From NCBI GenBank assembly GCA_015501585.1, contig JADNRY010000095.1, forward strand, positions 1-64,000: 64,000 bases of DNA, given 5' to 3'. A program made the translations under genes and the position numbers. The notes beneath the pieces were generated by a model. That model saw only the letters and a program-made list of their open reading frames with translations, did not search any database and had not been told where the DNA came from. Position 1 is the first letter of the stretch; each line of letters starts with the position of its first letter. This document shows positions 3,101 through 27,877 of this stretch, piece after piece. This DNA comes from Rhodocollybia butyracea. Lineage: Eukaryota > Basidiomycota > Agaricomycetes > Agaricales > Omphalotaceae.

Positions 3101-3900
3101 TACATGAAATTTGCAAACAGGAAAACCACAGCAGAAGAAAAAGTAATATGAGTTGAGTTTGAGAGGAATGAGGGCCAATTTTCGGATGGATGTAGAGACA
3201 AGTCCACTACCAACCTTTCAAGGGTGGCTTGGGCGGTTGCGGAATCCATGTACTCTAGTGCACGTTCTTGTCCCACACCATGCACCAGTAGTCGTTAGGA
3301 CTGTTGGTCCGGTCGAACGTCCACAGTGTGTCCAGCGTCTGGTGATCCGATGTCTATAGCCATTCTCGCAAGTGAGCAAGGAAGTGTGTGATTTTCCACA
3401 TAGGTGAACACGGACACGGTACATACACATCTGCAGTGATTCGATGGTGAGCAGTATAAAGTAGAGCAAACCAAGGTACAAACCGTCGAGCAGAAGCGAA
3501 GTGATATGGGGCCTATTAAGGTGCAAACATCGCTGCCTTTATATGTTTTTTTGGAATACTATTTGGGCCAGCCTCCGCTATGGGCCAGCCCATCTTGAAC
3601 TTGATCTTGAAAAAAGCACACTGCGAGCGCAGAATAGGAAATAGTAAGGGTGCCTAGGAGATGCGTAGATTTGTGCTCGATTCAATTCCGTATATAGTGC
3701 ATGCATACTGACTTAAAGTGACTAGAATTCTTATTTTGAACAAGGCTCTAATCTGGTTTAACTTACCATGTTTGATTGTCCAGTTCTCATGTCATTAGCT
3801 ATCAGGTGATTGCCGATTTGTGGGCAAGTTTGTGGGTCGCAAGTTACAAGTAAACTTCGTCCAGACGCTCACGCTGCACTGGCCTCCCCTCCCACCTAAA
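109..3900. other. unresolved region, no confident gene
   Basis: Several short frames on the minus strand look partly coding and have plausible splice signals. At about 2215-2425 one frame reads APGECFRSPIGF and then, across a possible 50-base intron, FRLSIRFLESKTMETVASSK. At about 3240-3340 one frame reads DTLWTFDRTNSPNDYWCMVW. They do not join into one convincing gene and I recognise no family. The 110-codon plus-strand frame at 379-711 has no visible domain. Confidence 0.3.
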
Positions 3901-5409
3901 ATGGTTGTTGCAAGATTTGAGCTAGAACCTGCCTTGCGAGCAAGAGCGATAGGTAAATCTTATCTCTAGTCCGCCACTGATACTGCTGATAATCACTTAG
4001 CAATCGCGAATCCAACACTCATCCAATGCGACGCTACCGTTGCTGCAGTGGAATGTTTATCTGTCCAGGAACTCGCAGATCAATCTGAAGGCGACGACGT
4101 CGACGTGGCTCCTAACGCAGGAATCACCGTATTTCTCATCAACTCAGACTATGCCAGCTACGATTCGGGTTGTATCGTAGTTGTGCGATATGACTTCAAT
4201 GACACTGTGGCACAGTGTCAGGAAAATGAGAATCTCAAAGCTGGACTTGAGGGAGGTGGGCTACCGAACGACTTTCTTGTGGAAAAGGTAATCATCAGGT
4301 TTTTGTCGAGTTTGTAGCTAATCGCTGATTTTTGTGTCACATAGATACTCCAAAGTTGGACCTAAACACGCTTGTACAACGCGTCACTATTGAAACGCAG
4401 AATAACGGGGACATTGCTCTAATTCCCGATGAGCATACTGCCGTCTCGGGTGCCCATTGCAGAGAACTTGAATTTGCCTCAAGTCGTCATCGATCAGTTG
4501 CGCCGACAGCCTTATCGCATCGACGGGAACGTCGACGTCGTAATATTGCTAAACGATCCGCCACCTCCATGTATTCAAATCTATCAATCTGATCGATACA
4601 GTCTCAGCATACCAGAGCTTTGAGGAACGAACCGTCGACCGTCTATTCTGGAAGCTAAATTTCTTGTCTACCTTGACTCCCCTTCTTTATACGCCGACTG
4701 CCTTAGTCATTGACTCTTATGGAGATTTTCGAGGGTACCTGATGCCATTTCATCCCGCTCAATCACTGAGCAAAGTAATGGAACGCTTGTGCGACTCAAA
4801 GGCTCAGATTATCTTGGAGCCCAAGGAAGGTGCTCAGTTACTGTGCATATCGCCGACCGCACTGGGGTATCTGAAGTTGTTGAACCTCAAGAATCCAGCT
4901 CCGTCAGTAACTCCCACACGGATACCAGGGCATAAATTTGGAATGGCGCCTCAAGCATACATGGCCATTGACATTGTCAGTGGTGTGGCTGCGTTGCATA
5001 ACAGAAACGAGTACTGTGGCGATATCAAGCGCAGCAATATTGTTCTGTGCACCGATGGTCACTGCAGGCTCATCGATTCTATGCCAGTTGGCAATGGATA
5101 TACCATTTCCTATCTGGCCCCGGAAACTGCAGATCTCGTGGTGACTTGGAAACTGATGGCAAAGAATTCCTGACGCGTGCCCGAGATGTATTTGCTCTTG
5201 GTCTTGTTCTGTGGGCTTTAGCAGAAGAAATCAATGAATTTGACCGTAGGGAATTTTTCATCACGCCTCGTCTCGTTTGGGTCTCTCGATCTACACCTCC
5301 ATGGTACTGTGAGCTTATCGAGACGTGTCTCGCTGATAGCCCAGAAGATCGCCCAAACACTAACTCTCTATTGGAAGCGATGATTGTACACTTTATGGAT
5401 AAATCGTAG
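3901..5409 (+). pseudogene. protein-kinase-like gene, frameshifted
   Basis: The start at 3901 gives 17 codons, then a 48-base GT-AG intron (3953-4000), then a 287-base exon. Downstream the reading frame changes repeatedly, near 4344, 4440, 4595 and 5140, with no intron between the pieces. The later pieces carry kinase landmarks in the right order: a catalytic-loop-like GDIKRSNIVL (about 5018-5047, with the usual HRD changed to YCGD), an APE motif (about 5118-5126), and DVFALGLVLWAL plus the C-lobe CLADSPEDRPN (about 5320-5355). The N-lobe is poorly conserved. The shift near 5140 lies just after APE and equals one lost or two gained bases. It resembles the short fungal kinase-like proteins common in Agaricomycetes. 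Several independent shifts argue for a pseudogene over sequencing error. Confidence 0.6.
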
Positions 5410-6007
5410 TGTTGCTTACACTTATCCAATAGTTATGAGTCATAGCTCATCTTTACATCTACCCATAATCCAAGCGGGACACAGTAGGCTGTATCCTCCG
5501 GTAACGCTAAAGATAAGTAGAGAGATGGGTATCTTTGTACTATGTCAATTAAATACAGGGCATCAAACGTATTCAGTCGCGTAGAAATTCTGCCAGCTCC
5601 TTCTGACATTTGTGCTCTTGGAAATGTCTGTGCTTGTGGCAGTCTCATTTCAACATCTCTTGATGGTTGAGGTAGCGTGTTGTTCACAGCCTTAATTGAA
5701 GACCACGGCAATCCGCCCGACGATCCATGTAACTTATCTGCACCTAGTCTCCTATAAGCAGACAGAACACGATGATCATGTGTGCCCATTTGCTATCCGA
5801 GAATCAGGAAGATTTCAGACTTTCGAGGCATTGAGCCATTGTTTAAAATAGTATCCTCCTTGATGATATATCAGTGCACCGAGTCGCCCTTGTTTTGAAC
5901 AGAGGTTAGTCTAGGTTAGTTGGCTGGCCTTGTGGTTTAGTTAGGTGGAGTGTCCCACTTAGGATTTGAGCCATAATTTCTATTGAAAATGAGCCATTAC
6001 ACTGAGA
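5410..6007. other. intergenic, nothing recognised
   Basis: It contains a 118-codon minus-strand frame (5433-5789) without recognisable domains and AT-rich sequence up to the retroelement boundary. I see no repeat or RNA structure I can name. Confidence 0.4.
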
Positions 6008-6358
6008 TATTGAAACTATTGAAATAAAAGAGAGTTCTCAGCGACAGTGGTAGAACGACGCTGTATTATGTACCTATTGAAATAAAAGAGAGTTCTAGGT
6101 ACACAGTCAGTAAATAGAGTAAAGAAACAAAGAATGTAAGTACTAACCTCAGCGACAGTGGTAGAACGATGCTGAGGTGCTAATATCTATGTAAAAACTA
6201 AAAGAATGTGATACACGTAATGTATGTAAGGTAACGTACATCTGAATTAGTGGTCAGGTGACATTTGGGAGCTGGATCCCAAATGTCATGTGCCCATGAG
6301 GTAAAAGTCCACAAACTATAGATAACATAAGTAGATAAGATATCATCAACTTTTAACA
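6008..6358 (-). repeat. 3' LTR of the minus-strand copia element
   Basis: It is about 351 bp and nearly identical to 9789-10140, with roughly half a dozen differences by eye. Near its end it holds a duplicated module: the sequence around CTCAGCGACAGTGGTAGAA occurs twice and GAAATAAAAGAGAGTTCT occurs twice. The first module is a hairpin whose arms are CCTCAGCG and CGCTGAGG. Confidence 0.9.
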
Positions 6359-8541
6359 CTCCCACTTGGGCGTGGCTTCATACCTAGCATGTGCACAAAT
6401 GCCAATGCTTCTCACCAGATAATCCCTTTGTAAATCCATCAGCAGCTTGTTGGGCAGTTGGAACATAGTCCAGATCAATCTGGCCATCAGAGATTGCAAA
6501 ACAAATAAAGTGGTGACAAAGTTGAATGTGCTTTGTACGGGATGATCAGCAGGGTTCTTGGAAAGAGCAATAGATGACATATTATCACCCAACAAGCGAG
6601 TAGGCTTGGTTTGCTGAAAGACCTAGCTGTTCAAGGAGTTGACAAAGCCAAATAGCTTCCTGTGCTGTACGAGTAAGAGCCATGTACTCAGCTTCAGTAG
6701 AAGAGAGTGCTGGGGAGGTTTGAAGTTTGCTGCTCCAACTAATAGCAGCTCCGCACATGAGGAAAACATATCCACTAGTGGATCGTCGAGTATCCACATC
6801 ACCAGCCCAATCCGAATCAGAATATCCAAGGATAAGGGAGATGAGTTCATCTATGATTGTGCCATCATACTCAATAACCCAGTCTTTGGTACCACCCAAG
6901 TAGCGAAGACAATGCAGAGCTTCATTTAAATGAATCTCACCTGGATTTGAGCAGTAGCGGCTCAAAATACCTACAGCAAAGGCAATATCTGGGCGTGAAG
7001 CAAGCATGGCATACATGAGAGTACCAATGAGAGCCTGGTATAGCGTGAGTCTGTCAGCCATAGCCTCTTTCTCGGCGTCTGTGGATGGGGAATCAGCTTT
7101 AGAAAGCTTAACTCCAGATGATAAGGGGGTGCGACGTATGATGCCATCATCACAGTGGAAACGTTTGAGTGATTCCTCAATGTATCTGGTCTGAGAGAGC
7201 CAAAGGACACGCTTTTCTTGGTCATAGTCAATGGCAATGCCAAGCAACTGTGAGATAACACCAAGATCCTTGATCTTAAAGCGTTGGCCAATCTGGTGCT
7301 TGATCTCCTGCATGAATTTGAGATCATCGCATAAAATCCCAATATCATCAACGTAAACAGCAATAAAGCAGATGGACTTGCCACATTGGAGGACGTAAAT
7401 GCAGTAGTCAGCATGGATACGACGGAAGCCAAGTTTCTCGAGCTCTGCATCAAGAAGTTTGTTCCAGACACGGGAGGCCTGCTTGAGGCCATAGATAGAG
7501 CAGCGGAGACAAACAATTTTACCAGAATGTTCACTAATGCCGTTCAGGAGGCGCATATAGAGCTCCTCTTCCAACTCACCATTGAGAAATGCAGTATCAA
7601 CATCGAGATGGTGGAAGTGAAGGCCTAGACGCATGGCGAGGGCGCAAAGGACACGAATGGAGGTAAGTTTGACCACAGGGGAAAAATACCTCATCAAAGT
7701 CTAAACCAGGCATCTGGGAGAAACCTCGAGCAACTAAGCGTGCCTTGTACCGCTCAATGGTCCCGTCAGGGAGGCGCTTAATCTTAAACACAAGCTTGGA
7801 GCTAATAGCACGGCGACCTTTAGGCAAATTGTCAATAAACTCGAAAGTTCCCATATCAATGAGAGACTTGAGCTCTTTGTCTACAGCTTTCAGCCAAGAG
7901 GCGGAGTCAGGACCGCGGAGTGCTTCCTGCAGAGTGCGGGGCTCTGAGGCTCCCTGAGCATGGACAGTGGCCACGAAGGCCATGGCAACACCTTCTGCAA
8001 CATCTGGTCTATCGCCTGGTGCAGGTTCTGGAGGATCTGGCGCAATGTCAGGTTCTTCACGGAAGCGGGCAGGTAGGCGACAAGCACGTGGACCATCTAC
8101 TTCTGGAACAGGCCCAAGAAGTTCAAGTTCTGTACGACGACGGCGAGCAGGTGGAGCCGGTGGAGGGTCATTGGGAGGAGGAAGATCAGGGGAGTATGGG
8201 CGAGAGTCACTGATGTTATCCTCAGAATCAACCTCAGAAGATGGAGCAGGAGGATGCGGAACCGCTGGAGTCACAGGGGGAGAGTTATCTTCCCACACAT
8301 CTCCCACTCGAGAAAAGCCAGGTAGGCCATCTCCAGGCACCTCACCATTGTAAAGGATCTGCGAAAGATCCGGAATGGGTAAAGGCGGGCCAGGAGGGTG
8401 AGGACGTTCATCAAAAATGACGTCTCGTGAAACAAAAGTTTTTCGCTTCTTCGGATCCCACAGAAGGTAACCCTTGGTGTACTCTTTGTAACCAAGAAAG
8501 ATGCACTTACAAGTTTTAAAGTCAAGCTTTGTACGCTTCAA
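6359..8541 (-). pseudogene. copia pol remnant (RT and RNase H, frameshifted)
   Basis: Three overlapping minus-strand frames make up the pol remnant. 8541-7597 holds the pre-RT proline-rich linker and the start of RT, up to FDEVF. 7697-6585 holds most of RT (HLDVDTAFLNGELEEELYM, YGLKQASRVWN, YVDDIGIL) and RNase H (SDSDWAGDVDTRRSTSGYV, SSTEAEYMAL). 6595-6353 holds the C-terminus. The first break is an extra T in the run after GAGGTA (five T against four in the plus-strand copy). The second is an extra C after CTAGGT. Integrase is absent. Residues around the catalytic YVDD are intact, so decay is recent. Confidence 0.88.
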
Positions 8542-15016: not shown

Positions 15017-18000
15017 TCACACCACCTGGGACAAGGCTATTGATTGAGTCATAACAGCATCATTATATCTTACAACCTCAGAATGGCCCACTGACAGACT
15101 CTGTATTCTGCTAAGGGTGGCTGGGTGCTCTTCTCCCAACACCTTCTTTGAGAGTTCCACAAGAGGCTCAGCTAGTTGATATGCATCATTGTATCTTCCA
15201 GTCTGATAATAGCTGATTGACAAGTTCTGTATTCTGTTAAGGGTGTGTGGGTGCTCTGCTCCCAAAACCTTCTTTGAAAGCTCCACAAGAGACTCTTTTA
15301 GTTGCAATGCATCATTGTATCTTCCAACCTCAGAATAGCTGCTTGCCAAGTTCTGTATTCTGCTAAGGGTGTCTGGGTGTTCCTCTCCCAACACCTCCTT
15401 TGACACTTCCACAAGAGACTTGTTTAGTTGCAATGCATCATTGTATCTTCCAACCTGAGAATATCTGACTGTCAAGCTCTGTATTCTGCTAAGGGTGTCT
15501 GGGTGCTCTTGTCCTAAAACCTTCTTTGAGAGCTCCACAAGAGGTACTGCTAGTTGCAATGCATCATTGTATCTTCCAACTTTAGAATATCTGACTGTCA
15601 AGCTCTGTATTCTGGTCAGGGTGTGTGGGTGCTCTTCTCCTAAAACCTTCTTAGAGAGCTCTGCGAGATACTCTGCTAGTTGCAGTGCATCATTGTATCT
15701 TCCAACCTCAGAGTAGCTCATTGCCAAGTTCTGTATTCTGTTGAGGGTATCTGGGTGCTCTTCTCCTAAAACTGTCTTTGAGAGCTCTGCAAGAGGCTCT
15801 GCTAGTTGCAATGCATTATCATATCTCCCAAGCTCTAAATAACTGTTTGCCAAATTCTGTATTCTGTTGAGGGTGTCTGGGTGCTCTTTCCCCAAAACCT
15901 TCTTTGAAAGCTCAACAAGAGGCACTGCCAGTTGCAATGCATCATTGTATCTCCCAACCTCATAATAGCTGATTGCCAAGTTCTGTGTTCTGGTAAGGGT
16001 GTCTGGGTGCTCTTCTCCTAAAATCTTCTTTGAGAGTTCCAAAAGAGGCTTGTTTAGCTTCAATGCATCATTGTATCTTCCAACCTCAGAATAGCTGCTT
16101 GCCAAGCTCTGTATTCTGCCAAGGGTGTGTGGGTGCTCTTCTCCCAAAACCTTCTTTGAGAGCTCCACAAGAGACTCTTTTAGTTGTAAGGCATCATTGT
16201 ATCTTCCAACCTCAGAATAGCTCATTGCCAAGTTCTGTATTCTGCTAAGAGTGTCTGGATGCTCTTCTCCCAGAACCTTCTTTGAGAGTTCCACAAGAGG
16301 CTTGTTTAGTTCAAATGCATCATTGTATCTTCCAACCTGAGAATATCTGACTGTCAAGCTCTGTATTCTCCTAAGGGTGTCTGGGTGCTCTTCTCCCAAA
16401 ACTTTCTTTGAGAGCTCCACAAGAGGCTCTGATAGTTGCAATGCATTATCATATCTTCCAACCTCAGAATAGTTGATTGCCAAGTTCTGTATTCTATTGA
16501 GGGTATCAGGGTGCTCTTCTCCTAAAACCTTCTTTGAGAGCTCCACAAGAGGCTCCGCTAGTTGCAATGCATGATCATATCTTCCAACCTCAGAATAGCT
16601 GATTGCCAAGTTCTGGATTGTGTTGAGGCTATCTGGGTGCTTTTCTCCTAAAACCTTCTTTGAAAGTTCTGCAAGAGGCTCTTTTAGTTGCAATGCATCA
16701 TTGTATCTTCCAACCTCTGAATAGCTGTTTGCCAAGTTCTGTATTCTGCTGAGGCTGTCTGGGTGCTCTTCTCCTAAAACTTTCTTTGAGAGCTCCACAA
16801 GAGGCTCTTTTAGTTGCAATGCATCATTGTATCTTCCAAGCCTTGAATAGCTGTTTGCCAAGTTCTGTATTCTGCTGAGGGTGTCTGGGTGCTCCTCTCC
16901 CAACACCTCCTTTGAAACTTTTACAAGAGGCTCTTCAAGCTGGAGTGCATCAAAATACCTTCCAGAGCTACTATACATCTCCCCCACCTCTTGCATCAGT
17001 ACAAGTGTTTCTAGATGCTGCTCTCCTAAGGTGCACTTTGTTTCCCTTAACAATGGTTCCAATAGCTTTGATGCAACTCCATGATACCCACACATACACC
17101 ATAGCCTTGCAATAGCTTTGTTGGTATGTCTATTACTTCCGATATCAAACCCTCTGCAGTGTGATATCAATAATCTCATATATCCAATGTCAGTCCAGTC
17201 TGCATCCTCCACAGTGATTGCCACAATACTTTGAGCTCCTTCTTCAAGGATCCTTCTGCTGGACTTACCAGTACTATTCTTAATCCATCCATGGATCAAT
17301 GGATGGAGTGAATAGAATCCATCTCTTTCAACAGTCACAAGAGAATAGGACATCAACTCCTCACTCATTTTGTTCATTTCCATCTCATTCCAATCCAAAT
17401 CTGATGATGCCAGGGCCTCCAATTGAGCGTGTGCTGCCAATGGTGGCCAACCCCATATTTTCATTTTCTCAATTGCTTTTTGAAATAGATTGCATGGTAT
17501 CTTCTCATAATGATAGCAGGAACATATCCTCAAAAATGTTTTACTTTTCTCTGTCAACATCTGCCAGCTAATGTCCCATGTTGCATACACAGAAAGGTTG
17601 AAGTTGTCACTGCTTTGTGTGAGGTACTTGCTTAGCAAGCTTGACAGATGCTTTTCAAATGTCTGCAGATAGCTGCTAATGCAGTTGTGCCTGCAAATAT
17701 AAGATCCTGCATGGACAAGCGCCAGTGTAAAATAATGTACCCTGGCTGCAATCTGACAAGCAATTAATTTCTCCTTGTCATTGCTCTGACGTCCTTTGAC
17801 AGCATGCTTTAACAGAAGTTTGATCCCATCCTCGGGTAACATATCATTTACTTCTGCTAAATTTGGAGATAGTGCATCAAGATGGCGGTTGCGTGATGTA
17901 GTGATAATATTTCCTGTGTTTGTTTTCGGTAAAAATTGCCCAAGATTGATTTTAGGGTCATCAGCATTATCCATCACAACCAGCCATTCTTCCTTGTCCT

Positions 18001-18596
18001 TTGCTAACAAATGGAGCCCTACTCTCCAGCTATCAGGCTGCTGGAGTCCATTCTTGATTGCAATGTCATAATAACTTGCTTGTATAGATTCTTCAGAATG
18101 GGCTGAAATAAAGTAGCGCTTGGTGAATCTACAAGATCCAAATAAGTAGGCATATCCAATATGATGTAGTATCTCCTCATAGCAATGGTACCTTGTTTTT
18201 GATTGTCTTACGAACTCTAGAACACATTGTGTCTTTCCGGCCCCACCAATACCTAACAGGAGAAATATCTTCCTTTCTGTAGCCACAGGCCGAGCTCCAA
18301 AATAGGTGTCCATTTCCAACAAGATATCTTTCCGGCCTGTAAAGAAAAGTGTGGCTGCAGGGAAATCAGTCATTCCTGGTGTATATCCTGTCAATTTGCT
18401 CAGCTCAGGAAAGCAGGGAAGACCAAGCTATATTGTATACCTGGAGGAGCAGTATTTTTGACCTCTGCCCTTGAGTTCAAGTTCTCAGCGGGATATGTAA
18501 CTTGAAATGATGATCCCTGTATGATAAAGTTTGATGCCCCTGCAAAAAAGTTGCTTCTGTATGCCCACTGACTTTACCAATTATACCTCGAGTCAT
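15017..18596 (-). CDS. NLR-like STAND protein: NB-ARC plus about 16 TPR repeats
   Basis: Model complement(15017-18387, 18441-18539, 18587-18596), 1,159 residues, with 53- and 47-base GT-AG introns. The N-terminal leader has GASNFIIQGSSF, like the short leader motif I associate with Agaricomycete NLR-like proteins (from memory). NB-ARC follows: P-loop GIGGAGKTQ, Walker B WLVVMDNADDP and sensor TTSRN. A helical linker leads to kinesin-light-chain-type TPRs of exactly 42 residues (consensus YSEVGRYNDAL, then LSKKVLGEEHPDTL). The last, partial repeat ends in LTR-like sequence. No enzymatic effector domain is visible. Known fungal relatives act in non-self recognition or programmed cell death, so a sensor role is inference. 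The first exon is only ten bases and is the weakest part. Confidence 0.85.
15060..17000 (-). repeat. 126-bp tandem repeat array encoding TPRs
   Basis: About 16 head-to-tail units with a 126-base period. Neighbours are so similar in DNA that the block reads as recently amplified or homogenised. Variable positions concentrate in a few residues of each unit, for example before GRY and after ALQL. Confidence 0.9.
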
Positions 18597-20039: not shown

Positions 20040-20866
20040 TCCAAGCAATAACGCCCTTGCCACCAGTATAAAACGGAGTGGTGAAGCTTTGCCTCTTCAC
20101 CAACAAACAGGCTTCACTCTACATGTCACATCACCATGTATTAACCCAGCTAACAATAGTCTCCGTTACTATTCCTTCTGACTTGGCGAAACCTGGCTAC
20201 CTTGAGTGTTTGTTGTTGCCGACAATGCCCACACATGACATGCCTGTCTCTGGCAACACAGGCTATGCATTCAACGTACGTAGCCATTTTGCGTGTGTTA
20301 AATTGGAAAACACTGCTCATTTGGTACACCGACTTGTTTGTAAGTTGCGGGATCGTGGATGTGTGTGTGGATTCAATACTATGAACATCGGGACTTACCC
20401 TCACTTAGTGGACTCACATCGAGACTCACCCCCACTTGAGCCCACCAAGCCCACCAAAAACAAGAACAATACCGTTGCTGGAACAGTCGAAATCACACTG
20501 GGGGCCAGCCGACAGTGTCAGGGAAGGGATCCCGCGCCCCGGACTTTATTTAATGTTTGAACCAGCGGAGTCCAAGTCCGAGTCGAGTGGGATGCTTTCG
20601 CTGCTAGAGTCAGATTGGTTGGCCTTGCCACCAATTCTAAATTCTCTGTGCTGGGTGTCGGAATCTAATGACGCCAGATACAATGTTGATTGAAAATCCC
20701 GTTATTTTGCCTCGTTCATCATCGTTGCTGCTGTTGCCATCCATGCTACCCCCTCGATGCCAAATTCGGCCGCTAAAGTTTTCAGTCACTGCCACCACCT
20801 CCCACTGGAGGCGGTGCAAACGATGAATCCAATTTATTCAGCAATAGTGGGCGTACCTTTCTGTCA
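20040..20866 (+). repeat. diverged repeat unit, inverted partner at 25.6-26.3 kb
   Basis: Sequence from about 20130 onward matches the reverse complement of about 25600-26310 at moderate identity. Shared landmarks include TGGTACACCGAC, AACAATACCGTTGC, CGCGCCCCGGACTTT and TTCTCTGTGCTGG. The frames are broken in both copies and I recognise no domain. It could be a duplicated decayed gene or part of a transposon. The right end of this copy is cut by the helicase element. Confidence 0.6.
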
Positions 20867-20885
20867 ACATTTTCTTAGACTCGAA

Positions 20886-20940
20886 CCAGTCCCCTGCTAG
20901 AGTTGTGATGTGAAAATCACAGCCTCGGCAGAGGGACTGG
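20886..20940. repeat. left terminal hairpin of the helicase element
   Basis: Arms CCAGTCCC (20886-20893) and GGGACTGG (20933-20940) enclose an inner hairpin with arms TGTGAT and ATCACA. The same place at the right end (24205-24264) forms a hairpin with different arms, CCAGTCGTTTC and GAAACGACTGG. Confidence 0.8.
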
Positions 20941-21174
20941 AACTTAATCCGGCTGTTTTGGACGGTCGGATTTAAACCACGTGCTTCTTTGTACTTTGTC
21001 GTTTCTCTAAATCCATAGTGTCCTCAAACTCGTCGTATGAACTCATTAAGACGCTCAAAATCTTCGCCGATTTTCCACGAATAACATAGTGTTTTTATTT
21101 TTTTGAAATTCGCATTAGTTCTTCCGGTAGCGACGTCTCGATCGTCTGCGACACTTCGGTCTCACTTCCACCTT

Positions 21175-22962
21175 ATGCCTCCCAAATACCCACAAGCACT
21201 CGATGAAGGACGTCTGGAGAAAGCTGAAAGGGTTTTATGTAAGATTTTCGAAGTTTCAGAGCTTAGAGAGCACCAGAAACTCGCTGGAAGGAATATACTG
21301 CAAGGTAAAAGCACTGTCTATGATGTTCCTACTGGTGGCGGCAAAACTCTCGCATTCTGGTATCCTCTCGCTTACAACTGGGACTCGAAAGATGGCATTT
21401 CAGTCTCGCAAAAAGTTGCACTAGTTGTCAGCCCTTTGAATGCTCTCATGAACTCACAGGTAGAGGCTTTGCAGAAGAGAGGCATTCCAGCTCTGGCTGT
21501 GAACAACGAGAAGGGTACTGGGAGTATAGATGATATATTTGAGGTGTGTATCTATTCTTTCTATCTTGATACTCCTCTCTAATTGCTGGTGCCTTTAGAT
21601 AGACGAAGGTGGCCAAATTCGCGTGAAACATCGTGTTATATTTATATCACCTGAAACTGCTGTTTCAACACCTTTTCATGAGAAGGTGCTCAAGATTAGG
21701 ACATTCCGAGAGCACTGTATTGAGGTTGTCATTGACGAAGCTCACTGTGCTAGTGAATGGGGCAAAGAATTCCGTCCAGAATACGCACAACTCACAAAGC
21801 TTCTTGCACGACTTCCGAGTGGATTACCTGTACTTCTTGCCTCTGCCACCATGCCGGAGGATGTGGTTCATGATGTCTTATTCAAGGTTGGCCTTCCGCA
21901 GGACTCCGCACGCATAGCCGTCTCCAATGCAAAGTATAATATTGCACTGTCGGTCCGCATTCTTCAGCATCCCGGTTCTACTTACGCCGACCTCTTCACT
22001 CTGTTCCCAGTAGAACCCGATGCTGAATTCCCACAGACTCTCATATATGTCAACAACCGCAAAGAGGCTGAAGAAATACAAGATTTTCTTCGACGCCACT
22101 GCCCATCACACTTGCCCACCAGCTCAGTCGAGTTTTACCACCGGTTCCTTACAGACAAGCGCAAAGCAGAAATCGCGGAAGGTCTACGATCTGGGCGTCT
22201 TCATTGCGTGATTGCAACTGATGCTCTTGGTATGGTACGTGCTTGAATAATCTTATTCTTTCTCAGTTCTCATTATCATATAGGGTATGGACTTCCTCGG
22301 GATCATGCGTGTCATTCTATGGCATGAGCCGTTGACCTTTCTATCACTAATCCAGAAACTTGGACACGGTGTACGCCAACTCAGTGATCTTGGCGAGGCA
22401 ATTCTTTTCATTACGAAAGCTTCATACGCAAAACACCTTACCGATTTGGAATCCGAGAGGGATGAAGATGGAGATGGAGATCAGCCGGAATCCCCAAACA
22501 CTATGGAAGAGACTGGAGTAGACCGTATTGCTGCAATTGACCAGGAGGATCCAGAAATCAATGCTGGGCCGCGTGGCAAGAAGAAAAAAGCGCGCGACCA
22601 TAAGTATTTTTCCTTGTTCATAGCTGCCTCTGGTTGTCGACGAATCCCGTGGGACGAGTTTTTTAGTAACCGTGGCAAATGTAGGTGTCACCATTCAATA
22701 ACATCTTTCCACTAATACATTGCCAGTATCTCTCTTCGTTCCACCTGAAAATTCATGCTGCTGTGATAACTGCCAGCCTGAAGCTTTTCCCGTCGACACC
22801 ATCAAAATCTCATACCCATATCCCACTTGTGCTCCACGTACAGCATGGTTTTCCGAGGCTCTTTCTGCTGAAGTCACCGATGCATTACGCCGATGGCGTT
22901 CTGAAGCTATCCTCATCTACTACCCTGGTCAACTTTCCATTGTCAGGAGCGCACTAGGCTAA
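21175..22962 (+). CDS. RecQ-like DEAH-box DNA helicase, spliced
   Basis: Model 21175-21543, 21599-22234, 22284-22680, 22727-22962; introns of 55, 49 and 46 bases; 545 residues starting MPPKYPQALDEG. Helicase motifs in order: I PTGGGKTLAFWYPL, Ia VSPLNALMNSQVEAL, II VIDEAHCASEWG, III LLASATMP, IV TLIYVNNRKEAEEI, V CVIATDALGMGMDF. The C-terminus has a cysteine cluster like the RecQ zinc region (CRRIPWDEFF, then CCCDNC). Motif VI reads IQKLGHGVRQ where active RecQ proteins have Q-x-x-GR-x-GR, so the first arginine is lost. HRDC and WRN-type parts are absent. An upstream in-frame ATG at 21103 would add 24 residues. It lies inside the TIR element, so it is probably a transposon-borne helicase, not the host RecQ. 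Confidence 0.88.
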
Positions 22963-23023
22963 GCATAGTGCAAATAGCAGTAAAGACCTGCAAACATATA
23001 TGAGATTATACTAATAATAAGTA

Positions 23024-23951
23024 TTATATGAAAGTACATACAATTTCCTTTTCCTTTCTACTAGTAAGAATTTCCCATAGAGTAGGTGCGACTTCCTGGA
23101 GATCTTGACTGAGGCGCTGCATGGAGAAAGTGGCCAATAAATCACTCATGGACATATTGGATGGCCGAGTGAGAAGCTTTTGGATGGTTGCATAATTTTT
23201 CAGTGAAGGTTGGACTGGAAAGAAAATCTTCAAATGCTGGTGTTGAACGTTCAAAAATATGGGATACAAAATCCGCACCCTGATTATTGCACCACCGTGT
23301 TATATTTGCCTTCATCTGGTGGTCATCACCTGTGCCGAATAACCGCTCTGTAAAATGCTTCATGTTACAAAAACCAAAACCGCCCTCATTTTTTGGCCTA
23401 GTGATAGACCGAAAGATATCCTGAGCCTCAGTAGCTTCCTGCCGAGCCTCCAAATTGGTGTTGAATGCCTGAGAAGCGTGGGCAGTTGCTTTGCGCATCT
23501 CAAGTTCTGCCTGTCGGTCTTCCCACTGTATGGGTGCATAAAGGTCGGCATTGGCCAGAGGATTATGATGTGCGCGTCGTACGCGAGGACGGCCCCGCAA
23601 ATGGGCAGGAGTATTCAGTAGCATGGACATAGGGGTTGTTGGTTGACCAGGACTGACTTGGGCATGCCTGGGAGTAGTAGGTGTAATATCTGGGAGAGGC
23701 TGGAGGTTGAGCAAAGGAATGGGTGTATCTGGATCATCATTATCAAACTGTGGTGAGGCTGGAGCACTGCTGATAGGTATATCCAGAGTAGGAGTATCTG
23801 AGTCTGAGTTATTGCCCCTATCAGTGCCTGCTGGAGAAGATGTAGCTGGAATGGGTAGTGGAGATGGGCTTCTGTGCCTCAGCTTTTTTCGAACTGATCC
23901 AGAGGCTCTGTAGCCAGCATCCGAGAGGCGTCGCTTTTTTGTGAATGGCAT
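23024..23951 (-). pseudogene. truncated companion protein of the helicase element
   Basis: The frame 23951-23142 gives 269 residues: a basic, Ser/Pro-rich, probably nuclear N-terminus (MPFTKKRRLSDAG, then SVRKKLRHRSPSP) followed by a conserved-looking block (GGFGFCNMKHFTERLFGTGD, NITRWCNNQGADFVSHIFER). Just after this the natural continuation is in another frame (23278-23024: SMSDLLATFSMQRLSQ, VAPTLWEIL), so there is a frameshift near 23190. The gene ends only 60 bases from the helicase stop. From memory, this layout resembles the start of the large DUF6589-type proteins of Agaricomycetes. If so, the catalytic C-terminal part has been deleted. That assignment is inference. Confidence 0.6.
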
Positions 23952-24204
23952 AGCTGTTTAAGAACAAGTTGCGGAGGTATATTGCAAAATTTGACTCTCT
24001 GATAAAGATCATTGAATATCTTGATAACGAGTTTAGATATAAAAAATCGGAAAAATAGACGTTATCTTCGACTTGAAGCGCAACTTTTTCTCTATTTACA
24101 TTTGTGTTAAATACGTATTTGGGACCCTCTAGTTTTTCGAATTTCTCGAAGTCCAAAAAAGCATGTGACTTAATTCCGACCCGCTAAAACTGCCGGATTA
24201 AGTT

Positions 24205-24264
24205 CCAGTCGTTTCACGGACACGGCTGATCTCAGTCATCAAAGTGTCCAAAAGAAACGACTGG
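24205..24264. repeat. right terminal hairpin of the helicase element
   Basis: Arms CCAGTCGTTTC (24205-24215) and GAAACGACTGG (24254-24264), with a possible inner GGACAC/GTGTCC pair. Loop sequence is unrelated to the left end. Confidence 0.8.
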
Positions 24265-24283
24265 CTTGAGTCTAACATTTTCT

Positions 24284-25559
24284 CGAGTTTTTCACAAAGT
24301 CTTGACTCAAGCAATCTCGAGTCCTAGAGGTAATCCTCCTCCGAACCTCTCTGAAACCTATCGCGACATGTTTGGTGCAGAGCTCCAGGAGAACTACAGA
24401 AATAACGGTACCCATGATCTATTCTTGATGCACACTACACAAGCAGTTGAATATGACAGGATATCCAATGTGTTTCTTGCAGCCGGGGAGCGATATATGA
24501 GCTCAAGTGACAGCATGTGAGTTGTGTCACTCCTATGTTTCCATCTCATCATGCCGCCATTCCCAAGCGTAGGCTGCTTGTTTCCCAATTCAGGCTTCTA
24601 TACATATGGATCGTCAGTGTAACAAGTCCGCCTATGGGAGACTAATTCAAGCTGTAGCAGGCTGTAGCTGTCGATGCACGAATGTGCGTGCAAAGACTGT
24701 GTATTTTCAAGGGGACAGGGCAGAGAGAGAAGCAGTCCCAATGTTAATGTTTAACCCTGACTGGAGTCCTTTCGGTGGAAAAAAACGCGCTATTCAAAGA
24801 CAAGGGTCATAACCCAAATCGGGAAGTTTTGAATTAGCGCCAGTTCTCACGGTTCTTCTTCTCATCCATCTCGCAGCTTGTTTTTGTAGCTCTTTTTGCT
24901 CTTCTTCAACTTGGTCTTCTCTTCCTTTCTGGCCTCTTCAACTCCATCGCTCTGGTTGTGAACGCTGGACATTATGCAAGTTTGCAGGTTTTCAGAGGTC
25001 GATTACAGTAAATAATCCTGAATGATATTATGAGCAAAAAAAAGCAAGTTACAACAAAACGATGGGTGCAAATAACAAGGACTAGCATGGATAACATGGA
25101 AAATAGGATATGAACAAAGAAATGAGGTAAAGTCAGAAAAGCATCGAGAAAGACGTGGTTGAGGACTAATTGTGTTCTTCAGTTCCTCAATGAGCGTACG
25201 CACATCTTTTTTGCCAGACTGTGATATTCTGGAAGGGCTATTGATGGCCTCTTCATGCTCGTGCAGAACAATGGTGCGTGTTGTGTTGGTCTTCCAGAAC
25301 CAAATGGATCTAATAACTTACAAAGACAAAATGAACAATGGGATCTTGGTCATAGCAACTGGATTCGGCCGTGAAGTTGAGTTGAACAGTGGAAGAGGAA
25401 TCAACAACAGACTTGAATTCGGACGCAAATTGGGAATGAACGGACTGTGACTGCAGAGACAGTGATGGCAGGTTGATGGGCGAATCGCGTCCGCTGCATG
25501 TAATACCTGTGGTTGGATTTTTCATCCTGGAAATTACAATCTCGGTGTTAGGTACTGCG
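24284..25559. other. no confident gene
   Basis: A plus-strand frame (24266-24520) reads NPPPNLSETYRDMFGAELQE and could be an exon remnant. It partly overlaps the helicase element's end. The rest shows short frames only. Confidence 0.3.
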
Positions 25560-26340
25560 GATGAGAGGCACTTAGTAGGCTAAAAGGACATACCGTTAGA
25601 TGAGGATGGATGAAGCGGGATTTGGATTCAAGAGGATACTCGGTGACTGACATTCTATCACTGACGTTGAATGCCCATGGGTCTCTGATGACAAGAAGGT
25701 CCTCAGACGTGAGGGCAGAGGTGACAATGGTTGAAACTTTGAGGGTGGAATTTGGCGTCGAGACGGTGGCACAAACAGCAATAGCAACAATGGCGATGAA
25801 AGAGGCAAAATGGCAGGAGTTTCATTCAACATCGCATTGCACGTTGAAGATCCTGATGGCCAGCACAGAGAAGTTGGAACTGATGGCAAGGCTAACCAGC
25901 CTGACTTTAGCGGCAAAAGCAACCTCGAGGACTTGGACGCCGCCAGTTCACACATTAAACAAAGTCCGGGGCGCAGGACCTCTTCCCTGATACCGCCGGC
26001 TTGTCCCCAGTGTGATTCCTGTTCTGGCAACGGTATTGTTGTTCTTTTTGGAGGACTCCCTGGACTCGACAAGAGTGCTTCCGGATGTTCCTGGTATTGA
26101 CGCTGCATAAATATCTCCCCAGTTCCGCAACCTACAAACATGTCGGTGTACCAATCGGTTTTGTTTTCTGAACAGCACAACTGCAAAATGACTGCGTATG
26201 TTTAATGCGTAACTAGAGTCAGACAGGCAGTGTGCGGTTGCCACTGGCAACAACATAGCCAGGTACGTAGCTCGTCAAGTCAGAAGGAAAAGCGATGGAG
26301 ACCATTGTTATAGGCTGGGTAACAGTCTAAAGATGTAATA
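25560..26340 (-). repeat. inverted partner of the 20.0-20.9 kb repeat
   Basis: The reverse complement aligns with 20130-20866. The longest frame (26186-25596, 196 codons) includes WYTDMFVGCGTGEIF and GLCLMCELAASKSS, but competing frames are equally plausible. I would not call a protein. With its partner it brackets the helicase element. Confidence 0.55.
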
Positions 26341-26388: not shown

Positions 26389-27877
26389 CCCCAGTGAAAA
26401 TTGACATGGTTTAAATGGTTGAGATTGAATGAAATTGGATGAAATTGAGTGAAATTGGACAAGATTGAGTGAAATTGGATGAAATTGGTAGCTGTCAATC
26501 CCTTACCCAAATCAATACATACTGAATCTGTTAGTTTTGAACCACATTGGTTCTACGCTGTTCTGAACAATCTAATCTATTAAAAAGTTGCCCCGTCAAC
26601 ATGTCAAGAGAACGCCGTGCCATAAAAATATTTTATGCAAGTCAAAACACTAAAGGCATTTCTCTTACAGACCACCACAATCACCCTTCTGTTATCTCTG
26701 TCCTTACTCTGTCTGAAGATATCTTACTAATTACTTCTGTCTCTTTGCTCAATCATCTGAAGATTCCAAAAACTATCCTTAACACATTTTGAACTGGTCA
26801 AGAACTGGTGTATAGACAGCAATTCAGGTGTGTTCTTCATTTGCTGTTCATTCAATTAACCTACTAATGACTGGTTTCACGCTTCACAGATAGCCAACAC
26901 ACCTGAAGCAGACTCAGTGAGTTCTACCTCATTCATTACATGTAACGAGGAGACGCCAATGAGACGGCGTGACAACATCAGGAAAAGCCGTTTTTGCCTA
27001 GGTGACCCCAGAGTGGCCTAAAGCAAACTAGGTGACCTATGAATCCTATGGCATCCTAGGAATTTGGGCTCGTCCCTTGCCAGTCAAGGCTCTTGAGGAT
27101 TCCCTAGGGTATCCTAGGCAAACCCAGGGCAAGCCTAGGTTTGCCCAGGTTTGCCCAGGTGTTCCCCAGGTGTTCCCCAGGAGCACCTGGGCAAACCTGG
27201 GCAGACCTAGGCTTGCCTAGGGAATCCTCAAGAGCCTTGATTGGCAAGGGACGAGCCCAAATTCCTAGGATGCCATAGGATTCATGGGTCACCTAGTTTG
27301 CTTTAGGCCACTCTGGGGTCACCTAAGCAAAAATGGCTTTTCCTGATGAAGCTTGCGGTCGTCATCCGCAATCGCTGTGCAATGTAGCGAGGAGACGCCG
27401 AGGCCACCGAACTGACTGCAAATACGCACTATTCAGTTTCAGATAACTCAAGAGATAACTAAGTCTTTTCAAACTTGCTTCAAAGGCAGCAATTTCTCTG
27501 ATTTGTTTGCTTGCAAGTATGGTGTGGCCTGGTGTGGTGTATATGTATATAGAATCGACGTACATAGATATGAACCATTTTGAACCAATGATAATGAACA
27601 TGAATTGATTTTAACAGATTTGAAAGCCAAAAAAAAACTGCAATAATAAGAACCAATTTCTTTCAATATGATACAATGTGAAACAATGGAAACCAATTCC
27701 ATCCAATCTTAATCAAAAAAAATCAGTTAAAGTCTCACTTTTCGAAGGAGATCGGTTCTCCTCGGTGACAAGTAAATACACCTGTCACTTGCTGACAGTT
27801 TCCAATCTGAACCGATATTGCTCAATTTGAACCAATATCACTCAATCTCACTCGATTTCAATCGATTTTCACTGGGG
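26389..27877. mobile_element. TIR element with subterminal repeats and a nested foldback MITE
   Basis: The ends are CCCCAGTGAAAATTGA on the left and its inverse with one mismatch on the right (27862-27877). A 5-base duplication ATCAA flanks it (26384-26388 and 27878-27882). Subterminal arrays of GAAATTGGATGAAATTGAGTG on the left face inverted counterparts on the right. No transposase is visible. Foldback copy F2 is inserted in it. Confidence 0.72.
26976..27348. mobile_element. foldback MITE, copy F2
   Basis: 373 bp, near-perfect hairpin, very similar to F1. It starts CATCAGGAAAAGCC and ends GGCTTTTCCTGATG. The 2-base duplication is AA (26974-26975 and 27349-27350). Confidence 0.9.

Follow-up and report, generated by a model that had tools for sequence, protein, structure and literature searches.

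An internally deleted transposon copy carrying a RecQ-type helicase gene in Rhodocollybia butyracea, very probably of the AcademH lineage

A RecQ-type helicase gene lying between long terminal inverted repeats in the mushroom Rhodocollybia butyracea raises the question of whether the gene belongs to a mobile element and, if so, to which kind. The locus occupies positions 20876-24274 (3399 bp, from sequence reading and end pairing) of the stretch analyzed here, the first 64,000 nucleotides (nt) of contig JADNRY010000095.1 (the window; C1327 in our numbering). It is a non-autonomous, internally deleted derivative of a two-gene DNA transposon. We are confident that this copy descends from a full form coding for both a DUF6589 protein of the DDE transposase type and a RecQ-type helicase, in a lineage that is very probably AcademH.

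Ends, duplications, and related copies

The element is flanked by a perfect 9-bp duplication, ACATTTTCT, and is bounded by the following features.

20867..20875, no strand: target site duplication, left copy, ACATTTTCT
20876..20999, plus strand: left terminal inverted repeat, starting TAGACTCGAACCAGTC
24146..24274, minus strand: right terminal inverted repeat, starting TAGACTCAAGCCAGTC on the minus strand
24275..24283, no strand: target site duplication, right copy, ACATTTTCT

Both repeats open with TAGACTC. Aligned over 129 gapped columns, the 125-bp ends reach a local score of 98, a value matched by 2 of 5,000 random pairs of stretches from the window and by none of 2,000 shuffles (maximum, 38). 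An Rfam scan of positions 20500-24700 gives no matches at the gathering threshold. A search for an empty site with the joined flanks recovers only partial similarity to single flanks; the stretches resembling single flanks are on C454, C493, C1207, and C897.

The family is abundant in the genome (95.6 Mb in 1,381 contigs), in which the element has 134 matches and the end motif TAGACTCRARCCAG occurs 207 times, compared to once for a reversed control. We scanned 38 sequences for paired ends (the window, 36 regions, and one further sequence) and find an element with both ends in 28, ranging in size from 94 to 6082 bp; the other 10 yield no end pair. These 28 remain from 30 paired rows after removal of two false pairings (L031 3688-7459 and L035 1056-2667). 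Of the 28, 26 are flanked by a 9-bp duplication that has at most one mismatch, the remaining two (L036 and L041) being real elements for which no matching duplication was found. Merging of repeats, which included a site seen from either strand (L058 and L059), leaves 22 distinct insertion sites, 21 with perfect duplications, and the duplicated 9-mers have no fixed sequence. The original prediction described a DNA transposon with a perfect 9-bp duplication, terminal repeats, a spliced helicase gene, and a companion on the opposite strand, and proposed looking for further copies with the same ends and fresh duplications; each of the features is present at the exact coordinates given, and the ends, the copies, and their own duplications bear out a DNA transposon.

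A host RecQ gene placed by chance between unrelated repeats might be considered for the window copy alone, which is without a transposase core, but the recurrence of copies, ends, and duplications leaves this explanation with virtually no chance of being right.

Several shortened copies are nearly identical to one another. Four copies of 771 to 772 bp are 99.7 to 100% identical and sit within four different duplications, and shorter copies on C483 and C1016, which agree with the window element at 99.0% of common columns, each have their own. Because these near-identical short copies show distinct duplications, their sequences indicate recent movement of the deleted copies. As the transposase core is absent from them, they would have been moved by a transposase from elsewhere.

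A duplication of 10 bp was also considered and rejected; the tenth base agrees in 12 of 23 rows, but it is the A preceding the duplication (11 of 22 sites). The base just before the 9-bp duplication is A at 11 of 22 sites and the base just after it is C or T at 18 of 22, a weak target preference of the flanking bases.

A helicase gene, a companion, and an internal deletion

The helicase gene of the window copy has four exons separated by GT-AG introns, and the companion is read from the opposite strand.

21175..21543, plus strand: RecQ-type helicase exon 1, containing PTGGGKT
21599..22234, plus strand: RecQ-type helicase exon 2, containing DEAH and SAT
22284..22680, plus strand: RecQ-type helicase exon 3, containing GHGVRQ
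22727..22962, plus strand: RecQ-type helicase exon 4, its final part past the deletion junction
22908..22946, no strand: approximate internal deletion junction, from C633 identity and the limits of helicase similarity
23024..23278, minus strand: companion, continued in another reading frame, with the frame change near 23175-23200
23142..23951, minus strand: companion, the remaining N-terminal part of a DUF6589 protein, from the open frame and likeness to the C823 companion

We take PTGGGKT to be Walker A and DEAH and SAT to be the helicase motifs so named; GHGVRQ presumably occupies the place of helicase motif VI. Pfam DEAD is matched in the first (2.7e-13) and second (1.6e-7) open frames, with Helicase_C reaching just 9.5e-4, under the cut-off. 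The TIGR00614 recQ_fam model gives 1.1e-46 and 159.6 bits, which is under its cut-off of 219.8, and the solved RecQ structure 1oyw is matched at 2e-26. The window helicase is probably inactive, since GHGVRQ replaces the GRGVRQ (L031) and GRAVRQ (L036) of related copies.

The companion is similar to that of the C823 copy (L036), which extends further than the window's and matches Pfam DUF6589 at 3.4e-21. The DUF6589 profile has 68 matches in the genome, none of them on C1327, and the DUF6589 core is therefore absent from the window copy. The copy on C633 (L034) helps to locate the loss. Its left 1.25 kb and that of the window element share 97.8% identity, and from 22946 onward 115 bp of the window are identical (100%) to the companion side of the C633 copy; similarity of the window helicase to those of C567 and C1335 ends at residue 528, at about 22908. 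The junction is thus bracketed at approximately 22908-22946, because helicase similarity stops and companion-side identity to C633 begins there. Lost from the window copy are the helicase end and the companion from before the catalytic core, so that the copy would be mobile only with a transposase from elsewhere. The C633 copy itself carries DUF6589 core sequence, split by an insertion and running off the contig.

We note that, among helicase-bearing relatives retaining DUF6589 core sequence, the C633 copy is the closest and that, read by eye, its insertion (approximately 3122-8080) is a Ty1/copia-type retrotransposon reading frame.

DUF6589 proteins and a second, distant family

Relatives of the companion are found in other mushrooms. 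A database search with the C823 companion yielded 76 proteins among the candidates scored, the named matches belonging to mushroom genera that include Lentinula, Dendrothele, and Mycena. The DUF6589 family has 408 matching proteins, 120 of which are listed. Structure prediction gives complete relatives a DDE-transposase-like fold (an RNase H-like core) with conserved D, D, and E. The predicted core resembles hAT (Hermes), P element, and RAG1 proteins and has a helical insertion preceding the final acidic residue. Foldseek alone gives no match at E <= 0.001, and the DUF6589 profile has no sequence matches to solved structures up to E 1, in which respect the core differs from Hermes, the P element transposase, and RAG1. 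Full-length copies whose companion has an RNase H-like core, which the original prediction suggested seeking, are thus present as far as fold prediction goes, and the predicted DDE-like fold in other copies supports its guess that a complete companion would be the recombinase.

The Pfam scans and duplication lengths also bear on known superfamilies. Mutator-like elements (MULEs) have duplications of about 9 bp and long terminal repeats, both of which fit the window element, and a MULE that has acquired a RecQ gene could account for them. However, in the Pfam scans the transposase-side protein matches DUF6589 and lacks any MULE domain, and a second, distant family holds the same gene pair; we thus give this origin next to no credence. 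MULE membership is rejected, DUF6589 being the sole family above the cut-off in P0078 and P0001. Membership in hAT is likewise rejected, since the Pfam scan turns up none of the hAT families at E values up to 1 and the Hermes fold match is a resemblance only; hAT duplications are usually 8 bp, in contrast to the 9 bp seen here.

Pairing of the two genes is not peculiar to the window family. The 68 DUF6589 matches form 41 loci, of which 17 have a RecQ-type helicase match within 7 kb compared to approximately 0.5 expected, a count that used all 68, 69, and 65 rows of three genome searches. A second family lies on C656, C720, C401, C1310, and C875, and its copies are 99.5 to 99.9% identical to C656 over 3.8 to 4.0 kb around DUF6589. 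The C656 copy is 7086 bp long, with ends (TAGGCTCGTGAACCAGCC and TAGACTCGCGTTGCCAGTCC) of the TAGRCTC type; TAGGCTCGTGAACCAGCC occurs 17 times in the genome at no more than two mismatches, compared to 2 for a control. The same 9-mer stands at both flanks of C401 (CATGGTACT), C1310 (GGATGTAAG), and C720 (GTATAGAGG), and no shared 9-mer is present at those of C656; three of the four second-family copies checked are flanked by 9-bp duplications.

On C656 an open helicase model of 894 residues lies on the minus strand and the DUF6589 gene, also open, on the plus strand. The helicase matches DEAD (9e-22) and Helicase_C (8.6e-19) in a Pfam scan of 672 helicase residues. Splice models of the second-family DUF6589 gene at looser settings have about 1150 and 1180 residues, with one join possibly wrong, and the annotated R. 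butyracea protein P0078 (1099 aa) was taken for fold prediction instead. Not every copy is intact, since the C401 helicase, which is more diverged (92 to 94%), holds a stretch with a stop. The two genes are divergent in the second family (C656, L077) and on C684 (L078), whereas they are convergent in the window family and on C823 (L036), and gene order has thus changed within the lineage.

The two families are distant yet share the pairing of RecQ with DUF6589, and together with the 17 of 41 loci this supports the helicase as a part of the element type, as opposed to a one-off capture. The earlier guess that RecQ copies in mushrooms are transposon genes holds for some of the RecQ-like genes of this genome, which should aid annotation, and a Pfam family of unknown function is tied to a transposase-like fold. 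Pfam gives no function for DUF6589 (PF20231, IPR046496), and among the papers searched for these names we found none that connects it to transposons; as far as those searches go, its annotation as a transposon protein may be new.

Lineage, mechanism, and neighboring features

The helicase-encoding DNA transposons of animals and fungi called AcademH were reportedly described by Kojima in 2020. AcademH elements have terminal inverted repeats, as does the window element. AcademH duplications are 9 or 10 bp and those of AcademX 3 or 4 bp, lengths that are tied to the encoded helicase or nuclease (PMC10045372). AcademH is present at low copy number in Basidiomycota, Ascomycota, and Mucoromycota, and DEAD plus Helicase_C domains are ascribed to AcademH, KolobokH, or Helitron (PMC10799480). 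Academ is listed among the superfamilies with a DDD/E transposase (PMC9587614), and putative non-autonomous Academ elements are widespread in Marasmius oreades (PMC8290104).

The elements described here share with AcademH the 9-bp duplications (at 22 sites and in three of four second-family copies), an encoded helicase (with DEAD above and Helicase_C below the cut-off in the window copy, and both matched in the second family), and a basidiomycete host (PMC10799480). With conserved D, D, and E and the predicted fold, DUF6589 relatives are putative DDD/E transposases, a part that the window copy lacks. The elements differ from AcademH in that short copies are numerous here, while AcademH is cited as low copy. 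AcademX belongs to the same superfamily but has duplications of 3 or 4 bp (PMC10045372), compared to 9 bp and a helicase here, and no XPG nuclease domain is found in the two second-family products scanned (672 helicase residues). The lineage is thus very probably AcademH, an assignment set by the cited features. The original prediction saw a candidate new type of transposon, and in this it is not supported: a helicase with duplications of 9 to 10 bp is already cited for AcademH of animals and fungi, and the element type is very probably one already described.

Novelty would be restored if DUF6589 and RecQ formed a separate superfamily unrelated to Academ, with helicase and duplication length arrived at convergently. 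The absence of a DUF6589-transposon link from the papers searched, the lack of solved structures matching the profile by sequence at E <= 1, and the Pfam entry of unknown function all speak for this, but the helicase, the duplications of 9 or 10 bp, and the basidiomycete host are the very features cited for AcademH, and we consider a separate superfamily unlikely. KolobokH likewise has a RecQ helicase beside a DDD/E transposase and is restricted to fungi (PMC9587614), which would suit the gene content seen here. Kolobok duplications are TTAA and its ends 5'-RR..YY (PMC9587614), however, compared to 9 bp without fixed sequence and TAG..CTA ends here, and the helicase is on the opposite strand from the companion; an exceedingly improbable origin, then, with membership rejected on the TTAA duplication even though the RecQ helicase is shared. 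Kyakuja, Dileera, and Zisupton elements are rejected on duplication length, which is 7 bp in Kyakuja-1_LB and -2_LB and 8 bp in Zisupton-1_PGr of the Dileera lineage (PMC12730594), that is, 7 or 8 bp in the three families and 9 bp here. Subtelomeric RecQ-like helicases of fungi, consisting of the helicase core only and present in several copies in one mushroom (PMC7473861), resemble the window gene by description only; the one in the window is enclosed in a transposon.

Most likely, the DUF6589 protein acts as a DDE transposase that would bind to ends of the TAGRCTC type, excise the element, and insert it at a target cut with a stagger of 9 bp, the gaps then being filled by the host to give the duplications observed. 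The helicase could open the ends or resolve intermediates at the donor or the target. The 9-bp duplication is the part of this scheme that is seen directly, and the fold and the pairing of the two genes suggest the rest. The near-identical long copies offer material for testing what a helicase does in DNA transposition and how it is linked to the 9-bp stagger.

Short inverted arms lie just inside both ends of the window element.

20886..20940, plus strand: left-end subterminal inverted arms, CCAGTCCC / GGGACTGG
24205..24264, minus strand: right-end subterminal inverted arms, CCAGTCGTTTC / GAAACGACTGG

At the two ends of the window element and the two of the second family the arms begin at base 11 to 14 and form 8, 11, 15, and 7 perfect pairs, and their sequences vary from one end to the other and from family to family with self-complementarity kept. 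Among 10 ends tested against 1,000 shuffles each, this self-complementarity is reached by 0 to 4 shuffles for five ends, 29 to 33 for two, and 97 to 301 for three; arms are clear in five, the remaining five having weak arms or none. The arms hint only weakly at a hairpin, and two inverted transposase binding sites would explain them equally well. One could go further and place DUF6589 elements in a superfamily of their own, with melting of the ends by the RecQ helicase exposing a subterminal hairpin for the transposase to read. This is in our view quite improbable, and we know of no cut-and-paste transposon with helicase-dependent end recognition.

Elsewhere in the window, a diverged inverted duplication (20151-20781 and 25734-26310, with pieces 74 to 85% complementary) flanks the transposon, the left end of which is approximately 100 bp from one arm. 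A 1125-aa open frame on the minus strand (15017-18394) has a weak NB-ARC match (2.2e-4, under the cut-off), after which come 15 tetratricopeptide stretches of closely similar appearance; it is an NLR-like fungal protein whose repeats may have been homogenized recently. Finally, a 153-nt inverted repeat (26976-27128 and 27196-27348) is 93% complementary, with 67 nt between its arms, and is rich in CCTAGG-like units.
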